A stretch of 25,242 nt of DNA from positions 1 to 25,242 of the IMG/VR virus record IMGVR_UViG_3300025131_000387; one strand, written 5' to 3'. Made by a program: the position numbers and the translations under genes. The notes under the pieces were generated by a model. The model was not told the DNA's origin and did not search any database. It worked only from the letters and a program-made list of their open reading frames with translations. Shown in pieces: positions 7,808 to 25,006 of the stretch (positions are counted from its first letter, which is position 1; every line of letters starts with the position of its first letter). The DNA is from a virus.

Positions 7808-8709
7808 TGGCTGAAACAACTACACAGATAACAAGACCAGCACCCTTTATAGAAACGTTAGGTAAAACGTTTGGTGAAGGTGTTGCAAGACTCGGTGCTA
7901 AACCGATTGATACTACAAAATTTCAACCAACCGTAGCAGCTCAAGGAGCTCTAGGACAAGCAGCTCAACAAGCTGCAGCAACTCAAGCTGGTTTAGGAAC
8001 TTTAGCTTTTGATGCAACGACAGGAGCTGTAACAGGAGTCGGAGCAGGAACAGGAGTTGCCGGTTATCAACCCTTTTTAGATCAAGCCGCAGCTTTAAGA
8101 GGACCAGGCGCTGGAACAGGTGCAGGTTCTGTTTCAGAATACATGAGTCCTTACACGACGAATGTTATTCAAGCGATGAGAGATGAAATGGCTGATGTTA
8201 AAGCACAACAAGATATGGCTCGTAATGCTCAGGCCGTAGGCGCTGGAGCTTTTGGTGGAGCAAGACAAGGAATTCAACAAGCCGTAGCCGACACAGAATA
8301 TAATCAAGCCGTTGCTAACATGGTAGCTCAACAACAAGGCATGGCTTATCAACAAGCCGTAGGAGCAAGAGCTGCTGATCAACAAATGAATTTAGGACTG
8401 GCTCAACTTCAACCTCAATTAGCAGGTCAGAATGTTCAAAACGTAATGGGCATCGGTCAACAAGAACAACAATATAGACAAGCGCTAGCAGATACTTTAG
8501 CTCAACAACAAAAATTATCATTGTATGAACCTTACCAACGTTATGGATTCATGGGTGAACAACTTACTGGTTTAATGGGTGGTTACCCTGGAGGAACTAG
8601 AATGACTAATCAACCATCGGCAAGTCCAATGTCTCAAGCATTAGGAATGGGGATCGCTGGAGGCTTAGGTTATGCTGGCATGAAGAACTTAGGAATGTTC
8701 GGAGGCTAA
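7807..8709 (+). CDS. Ala/Gln-rich internal virion (DNA-ejection) protein candidate
   Basis: The 300-aa protein is dominated by Ala, Gln and Gly. A central helical region carries SEYMSPYTTNVIQAMRDEMA (about residues 115-134) and ARNAQAVGAGAFGGARQGIQ (about 138-157), a pattern I recognise from phage proteins annotated as DNA-transfer or internal virion proteins (gp14-like in podoviruses). The C-terminus is Gly-rich with small hydrophobic residues (ALGMGIAGGLGYAGMKNLGMFGG), possibly membrane-inserting. Genes on both sides overlap by one base. No catalytic motif. Role in forming the conduit for DNA delivery is inferred from composition, size and its place before the 1345-aa protein. Confidence 0.6.
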   Translation: MAETTTQITRPAPFIETLGKTFGEGVARLGAKPIDTTKFQPTVAAQGALGQAAQQAAATQAGLGTLAFDATTGAVTGVGAGTGVAGYQPFLDQAAALRGPGAGTGAGSVSEYMSPYTTNVIQAMRDEMADVKAQQDMARNAQAVGAGAFGGARQGIQQAVADTEYNQAVANMVAQQQGMAYQQAVGARAADQQMNLGLAQLQPQLAGQNVQNVMGIGQQEQQYRQALADTLAQQQKLSLYEPYQRYGFMGEQLTGLMGGYPGGTRMTNQPSASPMSQALGMGIAGGLGYAGMKNLGMFGG

Positions 8710-9809
8710 TGAAAAAACCACACGTACTTAATAGACCAATGTTTACCAAAGGTGGAATCTCTGCCTACGGGAAAGGTATAGCTTCTAACTTAGTCACTGA
8801 AGAACAAAGACAAAGATTTAATTATGGTGGGAGAGTTGGATTAGTCGGAGGAGGAAATTGGTGGGATGATATAGATTACACGAGTACGCGCTATATGCCA
8901 ATCGAGCCAGAGTATACGGGTATAACTTCTGGGGGACGATTTGATTATAAAGAAGGCGATAAAGATAAATGGGTATACCCTAAGCGTGCAGATACTTTTG
9001 ATTTAGCTTTAGAAAATAGAGCTCAATTGGAACAAAAAAATATCCCTCTAAAATTAAGAAAATCGGCTGATGAACTTTATAATCTCGACAAGACGAGGGA
9101 CGAAGCCATAGCCGCTGATTGGCAAAAAGAAGGCGGAGATACTCAAGTCTTTGATCGGGATGAGTTAGAAATGGCTAGAAAAAGAATCGAAGGTAAAAGA
9201 GATTTAGCAACGATGCCTGACTCCGACACCATGGAAGCTATGGATTGGGAAACTCTATTAGGGCCTACCGAAGAACAAAAGAAAAGAACTAAAGGTGAAG
9301 CTCAACTGGGCTTAGCTGCAGGAGCTCTTGATGTTTTTTCTCAACCCAGTATCGCTAAAGGAATGAAAGCGGCTAGTCCTCACCTATTAAATTTAGGTAA
9401 GACAGCAACCGCGGATCAAAAAGCTAGAGACAAAGCTATCCTGCAAGGTAAAATTTTAGACAAAGTGTACCGAGGTCGAGAAGAAGAAAGAGGAATACAA
9501 ACTAGAAAAAGTCAGGATGCAAAAGCAGGAGGAGATACTCCATCCAATCTATTTTGGGGAATTCTAGATGCGGCTCAAATAAAAAAAGGTAAAGCAAAAG
9601 ACGTCGATTATGCCTACGCCTATGAAAGAGCATCAAACAAACCTACTCAGATTATAAAAAAAGAAGAAGACAAAGCAGCGATAGAAGCTAATCCAGATCA
9701 ATTTAAAGATACTGTATTTGTAATGGGCTCAAGCTTTTTACAAATTAATAAAAAGACAGGTCGCTTAGAAGACATTACAAAGGAAGTACTGGAAAGCTTC
9801 AAAGGGTAG
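8709..9809 (+). CDS. hypothetical virion protein (366 aa)
   Basis: The charged 366-aa protein has an N-terminal region (RPMFTKGGISAYGKGIASNL) followed by FNYGGRVGLVGGGNWW, a third instance of the GGR(I/V)G(F/L) plus Gly motif seen twice in the 5894-7807 protein. The middle is helical and rich in Asp, Glu and Lys (residues about 100-200), then an Ala-rich helix (GEAQLGLAAGALDVFSQPSI). No enzyme motif or clear membrane segment is seen. It overlaps its upstream neighbour by one base and is followed after 6 nt by the largest gene. Likely a virion component delivered or assembled with its neighbours; family not recognised. Confidence 0.6.
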   Translation: MKKPHVLNRPMFTKGGISAYGKGIASNLVTEEQRQRFNYGGRVGLVGGGNWWDDIDYTSTRYMPIEPEYTGITSGGRFDYKEGDKDKWVYPKRADTFDLALENRAQLEQKNIPLKLRKSADELYNLDKTRDEAIAADWQKEGGDTQVFDRDELEMARKRIEGKRDLATMPDSDTMEAMDWETLLGPTEEQKKRTKGEAQLGLAAGALDVFSQPSIAKGMKAASPHLLNLGKTATADQKARDKAILQGKILDKVYRGREEERGIQTRKSQDAKAGGDTPSNLFWGILDAAQIKKGKAKDVDYAYAYERASNKPTQIIKKEEDKAAIEANPDQFKDTVFVMGSSFLQINKKTGRLEDITKEVLESFKG

Positions 9810-16100: not shown

Positions 16101-16129
16101 TTGACTTAGTATATAGGATCTATTATATA
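16101..16129 (+). promoter_or_regulatory. sigma70 promoter for the early region, overlapping the reverse promoter
   Basis: TTGACT (16101-16106, five of six) is followed after 17 bp by TATATA (16124-16129). Predicted start is near 16136, just before the ATG at 16138, which implies a leaderless or nearly leaderless transcript. It occupies the same DNA as the minus-strand promoter, and TTGAC/GTCAA arms at 16101-16105 and 16131-16135 make the segment an imperfect dyad. Confidence 0.55.
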
Positions 16130-16135
16130 TGTCAA
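16108..16135 (-). promoter_or_regulatory. strong sigma70 promoter for the SNF2 helicase
   Basis: On the minus strand the consensus -35 TTGACA (complement of 16130-16135) and near-consensus -10 TATACT (complement of 16108-16113, five of six) are separated by 16 bp. Predicted start is near 16101, only about 8 nt before the helicase ATG at 16093, so the mRNA leader is very short, with at most a weak GAAAG ribosome site. Confidence 0.65.
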
Positions 16136-16137
16136 GC

Positions 16138-16500
16138 ATGAAAGAAGAAAAATCAATAGTTTATGTAATTCAAGAAATTCCAGGAACCAGTGAAGGACGT
16201 CCTAAAATTAACATTATGGGCGCAAGAGAATTTGGGGAGTTTAAATTTTTACTTCCTGAACTTTCTCAGATTATTTTTTCTCCGGGTCCCTTAATTTTTA
16301 AATTAAGGGATCTTTTAAAAAATTATACCATCAAAGATTATTTATTATTAACAGGTGATCCAGCTATTATAGGAGTTGCGTGTTCAATAGTATCTGATAT
16401 AACTAATGGTAAATACAAACTACTTAAATGGGATAAACAAGAAAGAAAATATTATTCCATTGATATTAACTTACATGAGAAAGGAAAAATAGATGAGTGA
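16138..16500 (+). CDS. hypothetical early protein (about 120 aa)
   Basis: No known family is recognised. The frame is also open from ATG 16129, but that codon lies in the predicted -10 hexamer and upstream of the predicted transcription start, so ATG 16138 (residue 4 of the longer form) is preferred; neither has a ribosome site. The protein is soluble, alternating strands and helices, with KINIMGAREFGEFKFLLPEL and LRDLLKNYTIKDYLLLTGDPAIIGVACSIV in outline; the TGDPAIIG turn followed by a small-residue helix looks like a nucleotide- or dimer-interface loop, without being a proven motif. First gene of the early transcript; overlaps the next gene by 8 nt. A regulatory or host-takeover role is plausible from position alone. 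Confidence 0.65.
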   Translation: MKEEKSIVYVIQEIPGTSEGRPKINIMGAREFGEFKFLLPELSQIIFSPGPLIFKLRDLLKNYTIKDYLLLTGDPAIIGVACSIVSDITNGKYKLLKWDKQERKYYSIDINLHEKGKIDE

Positions 16501-17047
16501 TATTAATTTTGAAAAAGACCAAGAAGAAGTTTTAGATCGTACATCGAATATAACTTCGTTAGCAGATCAAGTAAAAAGATTAAGAGATCTTGAAGATCAA
16601 GTTAAAGCAGATGAACAAGCTTTAAAAAATAAACAACGTGAAGTTGAAAGAATTTCAGGTGAAATTATCCCTACACTTTTAAGTGAAATGGGGTTATCAT
16701 CTCTCAAACTTGCAGATGGATCTGCAGTTGAGGTAAAACCGTATTATGCAGCTAGCATCTCGATTAAGAATAGAGAAGCAGCGTATAGTTGGCTTCGTGA
16801 GAATGGCCTAGGTGATATTATTAAAAATGATATTACCGTTTCCTTTGGACGAAACGAAGATAACAAGGCGGCACATTATGCTAACCTTGCGAAGAGTCAA
16901 GGGTTTGAGCCGACACAAAAGTTGAAGGTAGAACCCATGACTCTTAAAGCACTCGTCCGTGAACGTATTGAGAAAGGTCTCGATATGCCCATGGATACTT
17001 TTAACGTGTTCGTAGGAAACCGAACCAAACTAACAAGGAAACAATAA
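16493..17047 (+). CDS. coiled-coil early protein (184 aa)
   Basis: The protein has a heptad-rich helix at about residues 24-58 (LADQVKRLRDLEDQVKADEQ onwards), so probably oligomeric, then a mixed alpha/beta part (LKLADGSAVEVKPYYAASISIKN) and a C-terminal region rich in Leu/Arg (LKALVRERIEKGLDMP, FNVFVGNRTKL). Proteins with this layout lie beside the SSB-like gene in related marine phages in my recollection, usually without a function. GGAAAAATAG gives its ribosome site and it is followed after 2 nt by the SSB candidate. A partner or loader of the ssDNA-binding protein, or a Gp157-like accessory protein, are possibilities not shown by the sequence. Confidence 0.65.
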   Translation: MSDINFEKDQEEVLDRTSNITSLADQVKRLRDLEDQVKADEQALKNKQREVERISGEIIPTLLSEMGLSSLKLADGSAVEVKPYYAASISIKNREAAYSWLRENGLGDIIKNDITVSFGRNEDNKAAHYANLAKSQGFEPTQKLKVEPMTLKALVRERIEKGLDMPMDTFNVFVGNRTKLTRKQ

Positions 17048-17049
17048 AC

Positions 17050-17823
17050 ATGAAAAGTGAAACACAAATCACGAAACGTGAACAAGCAGGAGCGTTAGCT
17101 ACAAATTTATTTGAAGCTGATGCAAACCAAGGCGCTCAGAATATAACGCAGGAAGATTTAGCGTTACCATTCCTGAAAGTTTTGGGACAGCTATCTCCCG
17201 AAGTTAATAAACGGGATGCAAAATATGTTGAAGGTGCAGAACCTGGCATGATTTTGAATACAGTGACAAACGCACTGTATGATGGCGCAAAAGGCATCCA
17301 AGTATTGCCAGTCTTTTACAAAAGACAGTACATTGAATGGCAAGACCGAGGTGAATCTAAAGGCGCACCAGTACATATCTATGAAGCTGGTGATGATATC
17401 CCAAAAAGTACAAGGGATAAACAAAACAAAGACCGCTTAGCCAATGGTAATTATCTTGAGAACACAGCAAATCATTTTGTTGTGGTATTAGGAGATAGTC
17501 CAACAACGGCTTTGATTTCTATGAAAGCTACTCAATTAAAGATTAGCAAGAAATGGAACTCAATGATGTTGGGTACTAAAATGCCAAGAGCTAATGGAAA
17601 TGGGGTCTTCACACCGCCTACATATAGCCACATTTATAAGTTAAAAACAGTCCAACAGTCCAATGATAAAGGTACTTGGTTTGGTTGGGATGTTTCTCAA
17701 CTTGGTGCTGTTAAAGATAAAACAGTTTACGATATAGCTAAGAACTTTGCTGTAAGTATAAGCAAAGGAGAAGTAAAAGCTAAACACGGAACTGAAGAAT
17801 CTAAAACAGACGTACCTTATTAA
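17050..17823 (+). CDS. putative ssDNA-binding protein
   Basis: The 257-aa protein resembles phage proteins annotated as single-stranded DNA-binding proteins. Features: LPFLKVLGQLSPEVNKRD (about 41-58), AKGIQVLPVFYKRQYIEW (about 80-97) with aromatic and basic residues, NHFVVVLGD, ALISMKATQLKISKKWN (about 153-170) and YSHIYKLKTVQQSNDKGTWF, a beta-rich OB-like pattern. The end is polar/acidic and finishes with an aromatic (EESKTDVPY), in the style of SSB tails that recruit partners. No classic SSB signature is identified, so the assignment is moderate. AAGGAA precedes the start. It is the last gene before a strong intrinsic terminator, which fits a highly expressed early protein. Confidence 0.5.
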   Translation: MKSETQITKREQAGALATNLFEADANQGAQNITQEDLALPFLKVLGQLSPEVNKRDAKYVEGAEPGMILNTVTNALYDGAKGIQVLPVFYKRQYIEWQDRGESKGAPVHIYEAGDDIPKSTRDKQNKDRLANGNYLENTANHFVVVLGDSPTTALISMKATQLKISKKWNSMMLGTKMPRANGNGVFTPPTYSHIYKLKTVQQSNDKGTWFGWDVSQLGAVKDKTVYDIAKNFAVSISKGEVKAKHGTEESKTDVPY

Positions 17824-17914: not shown

Positions 17915-18451
17915 ATGAAAATCAAGAGAATTGAAGCAGAAATATTTATAGTGGATGTCCCAGAACACAATCAATACAAAGATCAACTATTAAAATTAAT
18001 TGATGAAATGCCTAATCAGTCCTTTGAGTGGATTAGTAAATCCGACAGTGGTTTACCTAAATCCTTTAAAAGAAAATATCTAGATTTATTTTATAAGAAA
18101 GTTATTCAATCATCCAGGAATAAACTTATAAATTATTTTAAGTCAATGACTGGCAATGTTAATGGAACGGATTGGAAAATATCTAATGGTTGGTTTCAAC
18201 AATATGGTAAAGATTCATATCACCAATGGCATAATCATAATGGTGCAAACTGGACTAATTCCTATTTTTTAGAATTACCGGATAGTGAATATAAAACTGA
18301 AATTAAAAATCAAGATAAAATTATAGAGTATGATGTTAAAGAGGGTCAACTTCTTTCTTTTCCTGCTCATTTATTACACCGATCCAAGCCTAATGGGGAT
18401 AAAAGAAAAACCGTTATAGCCTTTAATTCAAATTTTATATTTCCATTATGA
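17915..18451 (+). CDS. 2OG-Fe(II) oxygenase, YbiX/PF13759-like
   Basis: The 178-aa protein has the core of this 2-oxoglutarate/Fe(II) dioxygenase group: YHQWHNHNGANWTNSYFLEL (102-121) with His106/His108 as the first iron-ligand region, then VKEGQLLSFPAHLLHRSKPN (141-160) with distal His155, and Arg164 before the final strand TVIAFNSNF, in the 2-oxoglutarate-binding position. An HxH in place of HxD is usual for this subgroup. Substrate unknown. AAGGAA is 8 nt upstream of the ATG. The gene follows the intrinsic terminator and overlaps the primase start by 4 nt (ATGA). A 17-bp direct repeat on both sides suggests acquisition as a single-gene cassette. It differs from the 338-979 enzyme, so the two are not recent duplicates. 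Confidence 0.75.
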   Translation: MKIKRIEAEIFIVDVPEHNQYKDQLLKLIDEMPNQSFEWISKSDSGLPKSFKRKYLDLFYKKVIQSSRNKLINYFKSMTGNVNGTDWKISNGWFQQYGKDSYHQWHNHNGANWTNSYFLELPDSEYKTEIKNQDKIIEYDVKEGQLLSFPAHLLHRSKPNGDKRKTVIAFNSNFIFPL

Positions 18452-18464
18452 TAGAAAAATTTAA
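18448..18464 (+). repeat. 17-bp direct repeat, right copy (primase start)
   Basis: Second copy of ATGATAGAAAAATTTAA, here encoding the first codons MIEKF of the primase. The copies differ on both sides right after the 17 bases (GG against AA on the right, G against T on the left), so the identity ends sharply. Confidence 0.7.
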
Positions 18465-19962
18465 AAAAATATTTAATGGCTTACAACGAGCGCACGGTTG
18501 CACCTACGTTGAAAAGAAAAACGCAGATGGAACCAAAGTCAAAGGACAATCGTTTGTTAAACGAGAGCCAGTTATTACTACTCTGTGGGAAAACCATTTA
18601 AAAGGAATTGAACCAAGCCTAGGTATTATTCCAATTAATGAGGATAATAAATGTCGATGGGGGTGTATCGATGTAGATTCCTACGCAGGTTTCGATCATA
18701 AAAAATTATTAAAACAAATTCAAAATTTAAAACTTCCTCTAATAACTTTTAGATCTAAAAGTGGAGGAGCTCACATCTTTTTATTTACTACAGTTCCAGT
18801 GGATGCATCGTTAATGAGAAATAGATTAATTTCGATTGGATCAGTCTTAGGATTTGGTAGTTCTGAAGTTTTTCCAAAACAGGTAGAATTAAAATCCAAA
18901 GATGATACAGGAAATTTTCTTAACTTACCATATTTTAATTCTAATAAAACAACAAGATATGCCTTTTTAGAAAGCGGAGACGCTGCTACCATAGAAGGTT
19001 TTTTTGGACTCTATGAAAGAAATAAACTCACACCGGAACAACTAGAAAATTTAAAAATAGAAAGACCTCAATCAGAATTAGCAGATGGACCACCTTGTTT
19101 AGAAACCATGTCCATTGATGGTATTGGAGAAGGGGGACGAGACAATGCTTTATTTCATTATGTGGTGTACGCTAAAAAGAAATGGCCACAAAATTGGGAA
19201 GGTAAGGTCACACTATTTAACGAAAGACATATGAACCCACCTCTCGATGATAACTCAGTTAAAAGAATTAAATTACAACACGATAAAAAAGAATGGGGAT
19301 ACAAATGTAAAGACGAACCGATGTGTAGTTATTGTGATAAAGATTTATGTCGTCAAAGAAAATATGGTATAGGCGGCACAGCTCTCTTCCCATCATTAAG
19401 TGATCTTCAAAAAATTAATCTAGAAAAACCCTATTATTATGTAAATGTAGATGGAGAAAGAGTGAAGTTAGAAGAAACAGCCTTCTTACAAGATCAACGT
19501 TTATTTCAAAGAGCAGTCATGGAACAAATTAATAAAAGACCACCACGAATTTCACCCAAAGAGTTTGGACAATATGTAGATCTCTTATATGCAGGCATAG
19601 AAATCATTGATCCTCCTAAAGGATCTTCCACATTAGAACAATTACTAGATCATTTAGAAGAATTTTGCACGGACCGAACTGGAACAGGTGCAACCAAGGA
19701 AGACATGGAAAGAGGAAATGTTTGGAACAATGAAGGTAAACATCATTTTATTTTTAGAGAATTTTATAATAAGTTCTTGCTGCGTAGAAAATGGAAAGAA
19801 CCTTATGACATTACGATGCAACTTCTGGTGGATAAATGTAAATGTAAAATTAAAAGAGAAAATATTGGAAAGAAAAGACCTAACATTATGGTCGTCGAAG
19901 AATTTGAAAAACAAGAAGATACTTATAAAAAGAAACAATTTAAACCGAAGGACCCTTTTTAA
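18448..19962 (+). CDS. archaeo-eukaryotic-type primase with Cys4 cluster
   Basis: The 504-aa protein should make primers for phage DNA synthesis. An AEP-like catalytic domain is visible: metal-binding DVD (Asp75, Asp77) in WGCIDVDSY, then FRSKSGGAHIFLF (101-113) with the SxGxH-type motif at His109, and a conserved FGSSEVFPKQVEL with Glu140. The arrangement is closest to TOTE/NrS-1-type primases. A second region GEGGRDNALFHYVVYAKKK (227-245) looks like the PriCT helical domain, followed by a four-Cys cluster Cys287, Cys293, Cys296, Cys301 in CKDEPMCSYCDKDLCRQRKYGIG, able to bind zinc or an iron-sulfur cluster. The C-terminus is Lys-rich. There is no helicase domain; the helicase is separate downstream. 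Ends with one-base overlap to the HNH gene. Confidence 0.75.
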   Translation: MIEKFKKIFNGLQRAHGCTYVEKKNADGTKVKGQSFVKREPVITTLWENHLKGIEPSLGIIPINEDNKCRWGCIDVDSYAGFDHKKLLKQIQNLKLPLITFRSKSGGAHIFLFTTVPVDASLMRNRLISIGSVLGFGSSEVFPKQVELKSKDDTGNFLNLPYFNSNKTTRYAFLESGDAATIEGFFGLYERNKLTPEQLENLKIERPQSELADGPPCLETMSIDGIGEGGRDNALFHYVVYAKKKWPQNWEGKVTLFNERHMNPPLDDNSVKRIKLQHDKKEWGYKCKDEPMCSYCDKDLCRQRKYGIGGTALFPSLSDLQKINLEKPYYYVNVDGERVKLEETAFLQDQRLFQRAVMEQINKRPPRISPKEFGQYVDLLYAGIEIIDPPKGSSTLEQLLDHLEEFCTDRTGTGATKEDMERGNVWNNEGKHHFIFREFYNKFLLRRKWKEPYDITMQLLVDKCKCKIKRENIGKKRPNIMVVEEFEKQEDTYKKKQFKPKDPF

Positions 19963-21982: not shown

Positions 21983-22233
21983 GTGCATATAAAAAACAAA
22001 TTGGCGGATCCCATTACAAGAGCATGAAAATTCAGCCAAGCAAATTTATTAATGACAATAAATTGCTTTTCGCCGAAGGAAATGCTATAAAATATATCTG
22101 CAGACATGCACATAAAGGAGGAAGGGAAGATTTGAACAAAGCTATACATTATATTGAAATGATTATTGAAAGAGACTACTCGCAAGAAAATCCCATGGAA
22201 AAAAAGAACTATTGGGGGATCTTAAAAAAATAA
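21979..22233 (+). CDS. DUF3310 family protein
   Basis: The 84-aa protein matches the DUF3310 (SaV-like) pattern common in phages: GGSHYKSMKIQPSKFI near the N-terminus, GNAIKYICRHAHKGGREDLN (about 35-54) and KAIHYIEMII. The Asn/Lys/Arg/His-rich conserved segments suggest nucleotide or nucleic-acid binding; some members are described as nucleotide-kinase-like, but activity is not shown by the sequence. ATGA overlap with the helicase and one-base overlap (22233) with the polymerase place it inside the replication operon. Confidence 0.85.
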   Translation: MSAYKKQIGGSHYKSMKIQPSKFINDNKLLFAEGNAIKYICRHAHKGGREDLNKAIHYIEMIIERDYSQENPMEKKNYWGILKK

Positions 22234-24086
22234 TGCAGATCCCATTGTTCAAACCTCAGACTGAATGGCTACCACCTGAAGAGTTTCCGGACTTAAAGGG
22301 AGAAAGCGAAATAGCAATAGACTTAGAAACACAAGATCCTAATTTAAATAAGAGTATGGGATCTGGAGCTGTCGTTAAAGTAGGACAGATTGTAGGAATT
22401 TCCCTGGCTACTAAGACCTGGTCAGGATATTATCCCATTGCTCATGAAGGCGGAGGGAATATGGATAAAGCCATGGTCTCTAAATGGCTCCAAGATGTTT
22501 TAAATACTTCTGCTGATAAGATATTTCATAATGCCATGTACGATGTCTGTTGGTTAAGATCCTCAGGCTTTACGATTCAAGGAAGAATTATTGATACGAT
22601 GATTGCTTCAGCCATTGTTGATGAAAATCAATTGCGTTATGATTTAAATAATTGTTCTAGACGATATTTGAATGAAGCCAAAGATGAAGCCGCTCTCTAT
22701 GCTGCGGCTAAAGAATGGGGCGTCGATGCTAAAGCAGAAATGTATAAACTTCCAGCGATGTATGTAGGAGCTTACGCAGAGAAAGATGCAGAGCTCACGT
22801 ATAAGTTGTGGCAAGAATTAAAAAAAGAAATTAATCATCAAGACATTACAGAAATTTGGAAAATGGAAACGGAATTATTTCCTTGTCTCGTTGAAATGAG
22901 GTTTCTCGGTGTACGCGTAAATCAAGAACAAGCAGAGATCGAAAAGAAAACGTTAATGGAACATGAGAAGAAGTTACTCACAGAGGTGAAGAACGAAACA
23001 GGAATAGATGTACAGATTTGGGCAGCGCGATCTATTGCTCAAGTCTTTGATAAACTTAAATTAGTTTATGATCGAACGGAAAAAACTCAAGCTCCCTCCT
23101 TTACTAAGAATTTCCTAACTCATCACCCTAATCCTGTTGTGAAAAAGATTGCTAAAGCGAGAGAAATTAATAAAGCTCACACTACCTTCATTGATACGAT
23201 ATTAAAACACACGCACAATGGTCGGATCTTCGCGGAGATTAATCAGTTGAGAGGAGACAATGGAGGCACGGTCACTGGACGATTCAGCTATGCCCATCCA
23301 AACCTTCAACAAATTCCTGCACGAAACAAAGATCTTGGACCACGGATCAGAAGATTATTTATTCCTGAAGAAGGATGTACCTGGGGTTGTTTTGATTACA
23401 ATCAACAAGAGCCAAGACTCGTTGTTCATTATGCAGCCCTTCAAAATTTATATGGAGTGACTGAAGTTCTGGAAGCTTATAAAGCTGGAGACGCAGATTT
23501 TCATAGTATCGTAGCCGACATGGCTGACATTCCAAGATACCAAGCGAAGACGATTAATCTTGGTTTGTTTTATGGAATGGGAAAAAATAAACTACAAGCA
23601 GAGCTTGGTGTTAATAAAGAAAAAGCTGAAGAATTATTTAAACAATATCATGGTAAAGTTCCTTTCGTTAAACAACTCATGGATGCCGTGATGCGTAGAG
23701 CCCAGGACTCTGGACGTATCCGTACATTACTCGGTCGATTGTGCCGGTTCCATTTATGGGAACCCAATCAATTCGGGATTCATAAAGCTTTGCCTCACGA
23801 AGAAGCACTCAGGGAACACGGACCAGGGATCAGGAGAGCTTATACATACAAGGCATTAAATAAATTAATTCAAGGATCAGCAGCGGACATGACTAAAAAA
23901 GCTATGTTAGAATTATATAAAGCAGGAATTATTCCTCATATTCAAGTACATGATGAGTTGGATATTTCTGTAAAAGATGATAAAGAAGCAAAACAAATAG
24001 TGGAAATTATGGAATCTGCAGTTGGACTTGAAGTACCTAATAAGGTAGACTACGAGTCAGGTAAAAACTGGGGAGACATAAAATAG
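22233..24086 (+). CDS. family A DNA polymerase with 3'-5' exonuclease
   Basis: The 617-aa protein has a proofreading domain with Exo I AIDLET (Asp30, Glu32), Exo II HNAMYD (Asp104) and Exo III YAEKD (Tyr181, Asp185), then a polymerase domain: motif A FDYNQQEPR (Asp388), motif B RYQAKTINLGLFYG (Arg435, Lys439, Leu443, Tyr447) and motif C HDE (573-575). No 5'-3' exonuclease domain. By motif spacing Leu443 is equivalent to E. coli Pol I Phe762. The start is ATG 22233, overlapping the preceding TAA; an upstream TTG (22212) is less likely. This start gives MQIPLFKPQ, with a QxxLF peptide like beta-clamp-binding motifs. It is the core replicative polymerase. Followed after 9 nt by a small membrane peptide gene. 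Confidence 0.95.
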   Translation: MQIPLFKPQTEWLPPEEFPDLKGESEIAIDLETQDPNLNKSMGSGAVVKVGQIVGISLATKTWSGYYPIAHEGGGNMDKAMVSKWLQDVLNTSADKIFHNAMYDVCWLRSSGFTIQGRIIDTMIASAIVDENQLRYDLNNCSRRYLNEAKDEAALYAAAKEWGVDAKAEMYKLPAMYVGAYAEKDAELTYKLWQELKKEINHQDITEIWKMETELFPCLVEMRFLGVRVNQEQAEIEKKTLMEHEKKLLTEVKNETGIDVQIWAARSIAQVFDKLKLVYDRTEKTQAPSFTKNFLTHHPNPVVKKIAKAREINKAHTTFIDTILKHTHNGRIFAEINQLRGDNGGTVTGRFSYAHPNLQQIPARNKDLGPRIRRLFIPEEGCTWGCFDYNQQEPRLVVHYAALQNLYGVTEVLEAYKAGDADFHSIVADMADIPRYQAKTINLGLFYGMGKNKLQAELGVNKEKAEELFKQYHGKVPFVKQLMDAVMRRAQDSGRIRTLLGRLCRFHLWEPNQFGIHKALPHEEALREHGPGIRRAYTYKALNKLIQGSAADMTKKAMLELYKAGIIPHIQVHDELDISVKDDKEAKQIVEIMESAVGLEVPNKVDYESGKNWGDIK

Positions 24087-24213: not shown

Positions 24214-24867
24214 ATGGCTTACTTAAACGTAAACATCCCTGTGATCTATGCACAGATCAGGAGAGAATATCTCTATGATCTTAAAGAACACCATGGAGAA
24301 GTGGAAGACTGTGTTGTCTTTGGCTTGGCATCAATTACAGGGCGGCCTATACTCTTTCACGCACTTATGGAAAATGGTGCTATCTTCTATCGGTTGCCGA
24401 TTAGTGCGTTTCTTCAAAGAGGATTTAAGCCAGAAGAAGTTCCTAGGACTAGGCTGGACCAGCTGGAGCTTTGGAATTGCTTTAGTTATTATCCTGCTAT
24501 TACTAATTACGATATCTTAGATGGTCAATCAGGGAAATATATAGACAAAGATAAGGTCTGGCACATAGGATCCTATCTTTTCACAGTTGACTGGGCCCAC
24601 CCAGAGAGTAATATAGTCGACACAGATCATTCTGAAATACCGCACGAACATAAGTGCGCACACATACTTGCCTTGGATGATGGTAACTATGCGGCTCAGC
24701 CTAATAATAGATTAATATGGAGTATCCCATCTTTCACTGTGAAAGATGAAATTCCTTTCGATTGGAAGGTACAAACTTCCGAATGGAATGTTGAAGACGA
24801 TAGTAAATGGAAAACAGAAGATAGTGATAACTACTTCTACAAGATTGAGGAAACTAAAAATGAATAA
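24214..24867 (+). CDS. hypothetical protein (217 aa)
   Basis: No family is recognised with confidence. The protein is mildly acidic and beta-rich, with CVVFGLASITGRPILFHALM (33-52), IFYRLPISAFLQRG (57-70), and a middle segment with aromatic and His residues (VWHIGSYLFTVDWAHPES, then DHSEIPHEHKCAHILALDDG). The cluster of His with Cys near residues 139-152 could bind metal. The C-terminus is charged (VEDDSKWKTEDSDNYFYKIE). There is no signal or membrane segment. A weak AGGAC precedes the ATG. Its stop overlaps the metallothionein-like gene by 8 nt, so the two are co-translated. Base composition is more balanced than in its neighbours. Confidence 0.65.
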   Translation: MAYLNVNIPVIYAQIRREYLYDLKEHHGEVEDCVVFGLASITGRPILFHALMENGAIFYRLPISAFLQRGFKPEEVPRTRLDQLELWNCFSYYPAITNYDILDGQSGKYIDKDKVWHIGSYLFTVDWAHPESNIVDTDHSEIPHEHKCAHILALDDGNYAAQPNNRLIWSIPSFTVKDEIPFDWKVQTSEWNVEDDSKWKTEDSDNYFYKIEETKNE

Positions 24868-25006
24868 ATGTAAAGATTGTTTTTGTGATTGCCACTGTAA
24901 TGTAGGTGAACATTCCGATGCCAATGGGGTATGTGCATGCGCCAAATGTAATTGTAACCCTCAAGGAGCTACAGTAAACAATGAGGAGTGTCTCTCGTGT
25001 CAATAG
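24860..25006 (+). CDS. metallothionein-like Cys-rich peptide (48 aa)
   Basis: The 48-aa peptide has 11 Cys and 2 His and almost no aromatic residues, as in metallothioneins that chelate Zn, Cu or Cd in thiolate clusters. Cys positions: 4, 7, 9, 11, 13, then 25, 27, 30, 32, then 44, 47, giving repeated CxC and CxxC spacing (CKDCFCDCHC; CACAKCNC; CLSC); His12 and His18 could be extra ligands. It differs from SmtA/BmtA in exact pattern. The start is ATG 24860 with GAGG upstream; the open frame extends further 5' only as antisense-like overlap inside the previous gene. It overlaps the preceding stop (24867) and the following GTG. A zinc-ribbon pair or rubredoxin-like site is a weaker alternative because there are too many Cys. 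Metal binding is inferred from composition. Confidence 0.65.
   Translation: MNKCKDCFCDCHCNVGEHSDANGVCACAKCNCNPQGATVNNEECLSCQ

Follow-up and report, generated by a model that had tools for sequence, protein, structure and literature searches.

A phage-specific family of small proteins, predicted to be metallothionein-like, in marine phages including some that infect SAR11

The closest described counterparts of the protein discussed here are the bacterial metallothioneins of the PF02069 family, including SmtA of Synechococcus (PDB 1JJD) and the Pseudomonas metallothionein (PDB 6GV6/6GV7), which are about 50 residues long, with roughly 20% Cys plus His. Their ligands follow the order CxCxxCxC ... 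C(S/C)xxCAxxH ... GCxHxxCxC, and their number in SmtA, 11, equals the Cys/His count of the core of a phage protein family whose representative we studied in a viral window (the whole stretch of 25,242 nucleotides that was analyzed). The phage family resembles the PF02069 proteins in length and Cys/His content, and has in common with them a CxCxxCxC motif, 11 or so ligands and few aromatic residues. Metallothioneins in the broad sense form a polyphyletic class of proteins that bind several d10 metal ions in a thiolate cluster. In sequence they are recognized by a mass under about 10 kDa, a very high content of Cys in CxC and CxxC motifs, few aromatics and conserved Cys/His as metal ligands; the phage proteins show all of these sequence properties, and cluster formation is predicted for them.

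The gene in the window (Table 1) encodes the protein MNKCKDCFCDCHCNVGEHSDANGVCACAKCNCNPQGATVNNEECLSCQ, in which Cys makes up 23% of the residues and forms five CxC and three CxxC motifs (positions 4, 7, 9, 11 and 13, then 25, 27, 30 and 32, then 44 and 47), with His at positions 12 and 18 and one Phe as the sole aromatic. Its start overlaps the end of the preceding gene, stop codon included, by 8 nt, and TGAGGA or a similar sequence is found 5' of the ATG in many homologs. The size, the Cys and His counts, the motif spacing, the coupled ATG and the ribosome-binding site had all been described in the initial annotation and were confirmed in the sequence. The runner-up among open 48-residue stretches upstream in the window contains 6 Cys. 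When the window was shuffled 60 times with its dinucleotides preserved, the maximum was 9 and the usual count 5-6, which excludes a chance origin of a frame with 11. Across 46 distinct 48-residue genes, that of the window included, the mean dN/dS is about 0.13, and TGT and TGC are used interchangeably for the 11 Cys, all of which are invariant in all 46. The frame is a real gene under strong purifying selection.

Table 1. Features of the window referred to in the text, in order of position.
Feature	Coordinates	Strand	Remarks
Three genes	16129..17823	+	Match the Pam3 phage gp32, gp33 and gp34 families
Primase	18448..19962	+	PF22548 match (archaeo-eukaryotic primase domain, TOTE conflict systems)
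DNA polymerase A	22212..24086	+	Upstream; conserved in synteny
"PurM" neighbor, 217 aa	24214..24867	+	Conserved; annotated PurM in cyanophages and pelagiphages; PHROG 3704 "ferredoxin"
GAGGA ribosome-binding site of the putative metallothionein-like gene	24847..24851	+	8 nt 5' of the ATG
Putative metallothionein-like gene	24860..25006	+	48 aa; 11 Cys; 2 conserved His
Coupled downstream gene, about 71 aa	24997..25212	+	GTG start inferred from homologs; conserved CCxxH...CC

When viral contigs were searched with the single protein, 66 close relatives were recovered, and profile scans extended the set of wider relatives to 308 and then to at least 464. Ligands were counted in 139 distinct proteins from loci that had been collected with patterns covering parts of the core and subsequently fetched, 136 of them having the full core. 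The core, C-x2-C-x-[CH]-x-C-H-C-x4-[HC]-[SAG]-D-x2-G-x-C-x-C-x2-C-x-[CH], comprises 11 potential Cys/His ligands kept across the 139 members. In the 136 full cores positions 4, 7, 11, 12, 13, 25, 27 and 30 are fixed, and the remaining three are occupied exclusively by Cys or His (Cys:His 79:57 at position 9, His:Cys 134:2 at position 18 and Cys:His 134:2 at position 32). Recounting only those members that escape the pattern over the scored region gave the same result for these three positions, with the proviso that it still presupposes the C..C.[CH].CHC start, which all members of the HMM-collected set have. Because exchange at positions 9, 18 and 32 is restricted to Cys and His, they bear the signature of metal ligands rather than of disulfides, and the core Cys/His positions together appear to fit such ligands. 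This pattern of conservation and exchange lends support to the metallothionein-like character ascribed to the protein in the initial annotation. Homologs keeping the frame and losing most of the Cys would have spoken against that character. This check did not refute it, as the more distant relatives retain 8 Cys, with His in one of the lost Cys positions.

Beyond the 11-position core, Cys 44 and Cys 47 are always present in the sub-clade of the window protein. The corresponding C-terminal ECxxC pair occurs in 78 of 78 full-length members with Cys at position 9 and in 6 of the 54 members with His there (48 lack it), an association that partly reflects shared ancestry. Aromatics number 0 or 1 in 76 of the 84 members ending in CQ. 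The family also includes tandem paralogs, with overlapping 8-Cys and 11-Cys forms at one locus (L082) and a second tandem pair on another contig (one and the same in L017 and L076).

With fair confidence, we favor the explanation that these proteins constitute a phage-specific family of small metallothionein-like metal-thiolate proteins, whose predicted role is to store or buffer zinc and similar metals. Their Cys and His residues would enclose 3-4 divalent ions, with Zn(II) as the most likely metal, in a cluster of thiolate and imidazole ligands. A multinuclear cluster is suggested by the number and spacing of the ligands, since the alternating CxCxCxC run would be hard to serve with single mononuclear sites and is typical of clusters rather than of mononuclear fingers, and Zn(II) is preferred over Cu(I) because the conserved His ligands favor zinc. 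Produced in the infected cell, the protein may be a general buffer of the cytosol that binds zinc (or Cd/Cu) when infection frees it or leaves a surplus, and that passes it on to newly made zinc proteins. Points against a metallothionein include the following: the family has no sequence or fold match to a known one, and AlphaFold confidence is low, with a pLDDT of 60 for the window protein, which is too poor for use, and of 76.5 for a relative consisting of the 36-residue core. The model of the latter found no match in the PDB with Foldseek, a result that says little for a peptide folded by metal.

An alternative is that the family represents small structural zinc proteins, comparable to zinc fingers, in which the metals just hold the fold. 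Their partner would be a host protein or a nucleic acid, and the effect might be redirected transcription or a blocked host zinc enzyme or defense. Small zinc-finger regulators are frequent in phages, and the family conserves several residues that are not ligands, namely D20, G23 and K3/K5 (an H-S/A-D-x2-G stretch and a Lys ahead of the first Cys), which could point to a binding partner; in addition, the related pelagiphage HTVC027P encodes, in the corresponding position downstream of PurM, a peptide of another kind, CxxC...HxxH...CxxCDC. Nevertheless, we regard this alternative as unlikely, since the 11-13 potential ligands in 48 residues far exceed the need of one finger, the alternating CxCxCxC run and the tandem duplication are metallothionein-like, and no zinc-finger family was matched.

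Still less probable is that these proteins are divergent true members of the SmtA/BmtA family (PF02069). A profile-profile comparison of the family with bacterial metallothioneins yielded a local P of 0.007 over 14 columns, which cover the shared CxCxxCxC only, and a global P of 0.43. With composition correction turned off, a bacterial metallothionein HMM scored the family above most residue-shuffled controls, with a median of 21 bits versus 11 bits; however, the best family score of 28.2 bits compares with 27.1 bits for one shuffled control and with 97-112 bits for true members, and the aligned stretches center on the common Cys motif. Of the PF02069 order of motifs the family has the CxCxxCxC element only, and it has no match to the Pfam model. 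We therefore rejected PF02069 membership on the basis of profile-profile comparison, HMM scores with shuffled controls and motif order; the first two also bear out the view in the initial annotation that the cyanobacterial Cys pattern is not simply copied.

Searches with the single protein and with alignments against Pfam, NCBIfam, PHROGs, PADLOC and PDB sequences recovered no meaningful match, which strengthens the earlier suggestion that this may be an undescribed viral family. The weak matches that turned up here and there (GASA, UFD1, GatB, ribosomal S27, some PHROGs) seem to reflect composition. The high Cys content and the PHROGs label of the neighboring gene might suggest an iron-sulfur protein or a redox protein with disulfides. 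This is highly improbable, given that the window protein has neither CxxCxxCxxxC(P) or rubredoxin-type motifs nor paired CxxCG knuckles and no Pfam match, that exchange of Cys for His does not fit disulfides, and that the neighbor is the phage "PurM" gene, with no ferredoxin domain in Pfam. Judged from sequence, the family thus matches no known family and is plausibly metallothionein-like in its action, outside PF02069. We found no report of a phage or pelagiphage metallothionein in the literature searched, the scope of which excluded preprints and most subscription journals, so that a prior description is possible.

Among public phage records, the family is present in the Pelagibacter phages Gjalp, Eyrgjafa and HTVC041P and in the deep Mediterranean phage KM23-C739; the gene is unnamed or unannotated, and in the three records inspected it lies directly 5' of the capsid gene. 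A survey of 84,980 prokaryote genomes gave one confirmed match, on a contig of a Pelagibacteraceae single-cell genome. The polymerase A, PurM and metallothionein-like proteins encoded on this contig are respectively 84%, 80% and 79% identical to those of the window. This similarity points to SAR11 as host, and at least some of the carrier phages infect SAR11. The family was otherwise undetected in 397 sampled Pelagibacteraceae genomes, and a search of a plasmid collection found no match. Among 398 Pseudomonadota genomes matches were at chance level, three weak ones outside the Pelagibacteraceae showing no sign of the family on inspection. PF02069 itself was not found in 147 Pelagibacteraceae genomes in a search that detected the S. 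elongatus positive control; as many of these genomes may be incomplete, we provisionally consider SAR11 to be without a detected SmtA-type metallothionein. Buffering by the phage protein would serve a host family in which such a protein went undetected.

The family occupies at least five phage gene neighborhoods, with PolA/PurM, capsid, terminase, endolysin or tail genes nearby. In the lineage of the window the gene follows PolA and PurM, with PurM close upstream in 137 of 199 loci (counted among the matches listed, which are ranked by similarity, and hence not abundances). The initial annotation had placed the gene at the end of a replication operon, which calls for one correction: its immediate upstream neighbor, labeled "PurM" or "ferredoxin", does not belong to the replication genes, and DNA polymerase A lies further upstream. 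Both labels of this neighbor look doubtful, because its product has no Pfam match. In a study of HTVC023P-type pelagiphages, purM is reported in 45% of genomes and 2OG-Fe(II) oxygenases are also described; no Cys-rich protein came up in a term search of its main text (PMC9599517). The window polymerase is closest to that of HTVC023P/HTVC027P-type pelagiphages, and its occurrence together with genes of Pam3 type in the window indicates a mosaic genome. In HTVC023P an unannotated Cys-rich frame, NKTFCFECHHDCHCDKICPKCSCYTCNN, stands directly 3' of PurM (L201, about 8585-8750); it may be a shortened relative, with no ATG start seen and no match to the family profile. The HTVC027P peptide mentioned above is gp12 (L200, 8641-8799).

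The proposal that the protein supplies metal to the primase, a zinc peptidase (M15) or oxygenases, or protects the replisome, found no support because the neighborhoods vary, with relatives adjoining capsid, terminase, endolysin and tail genes. The unrelated gene neighborhoods instead favor a general service, such as metal buffering, over a fixed partnership with the replisome, and suggest that the gene is horizontally moved cargo that would help infection in general.

In the window, the gene overlaps a downstream gene by 10 nt, and GAGGAG at 24983-24988 lies ahead of the GTG of the latter. Its product has a conserved stretch of the form KCCNxHTKEKExxGxCCQ, represented in the window by RTCNMHTKEKEELGTCCQ (TCNMH...TCC). 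Across the fetched loci, a tblastn search with this protein gave 100 matching places, most of them immediately 3' of the metallothionein-like gene, and a homolog occurs in L087. The conserved CCxxH...CC suggests another metal-binding peptide, which, as a guess, might serve as a metal relay or regulator alongside the metallothionein-like protein in the sub-clade of the window. A more tentative possibility, to which we give less than an even chance, is that a phage-only, undescribed metallothionein family has spread by horizontal transfer between phages of SAR11, and perhaps of other ocean bacteria, that are not related to one another, and buffers metal in hosts in which no SmtA-type metallothionein is found, one lineage having combined it with the coupled CCxxH...CC peptide in a two-part store and relay.

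Few bacterial groups of the ocean are as abundant as SAR11, and the gene is carried by phages of several unrelated kinds, including SAR11 isolates. Should the peptide bind zinc, these phages would provide a metal buffer of their own in a host family without a detectable SmtA-type metallothionein, trace-metal control in infection would become testable, and the protein could bear on the handling of scarce metals up to and at lysis. The natural exchanges between Cys and His also provide a small, clean model for the evolution of metal clusters.

Compared with the PF02069 metallothioneins, the Cys groups of the phage family differ in order and spacing and give no significant profile match; nothing in matching order corresponds to the C-terminal half of SmtA (GCGHxxCxC), and the genes of the family are found in phages, without an SmtB-type repressor. 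A protein of Microcystis phage MaAM05 (L208, 1501-1719) is likewise of metallothionein type and encoded in a phage genome, in this case a large one in which it is annotated just as hypothetical; in contrast to the window protein, it is a true SmtA-type metallothionein, 44% identical to SmtA and unrelated to the family described here. Gjalp gp42 (QLF88234.1), the same ORF in Eyrgjafa and an ORF of HTVC041P do belong to the family of the window protein by profile (E about 4e-20), with matching ligand positions, but they lack the ECxxC tail and represent a distinct form with 8 Cys and His at position 9, encoded directly 5' of the capsid gene.
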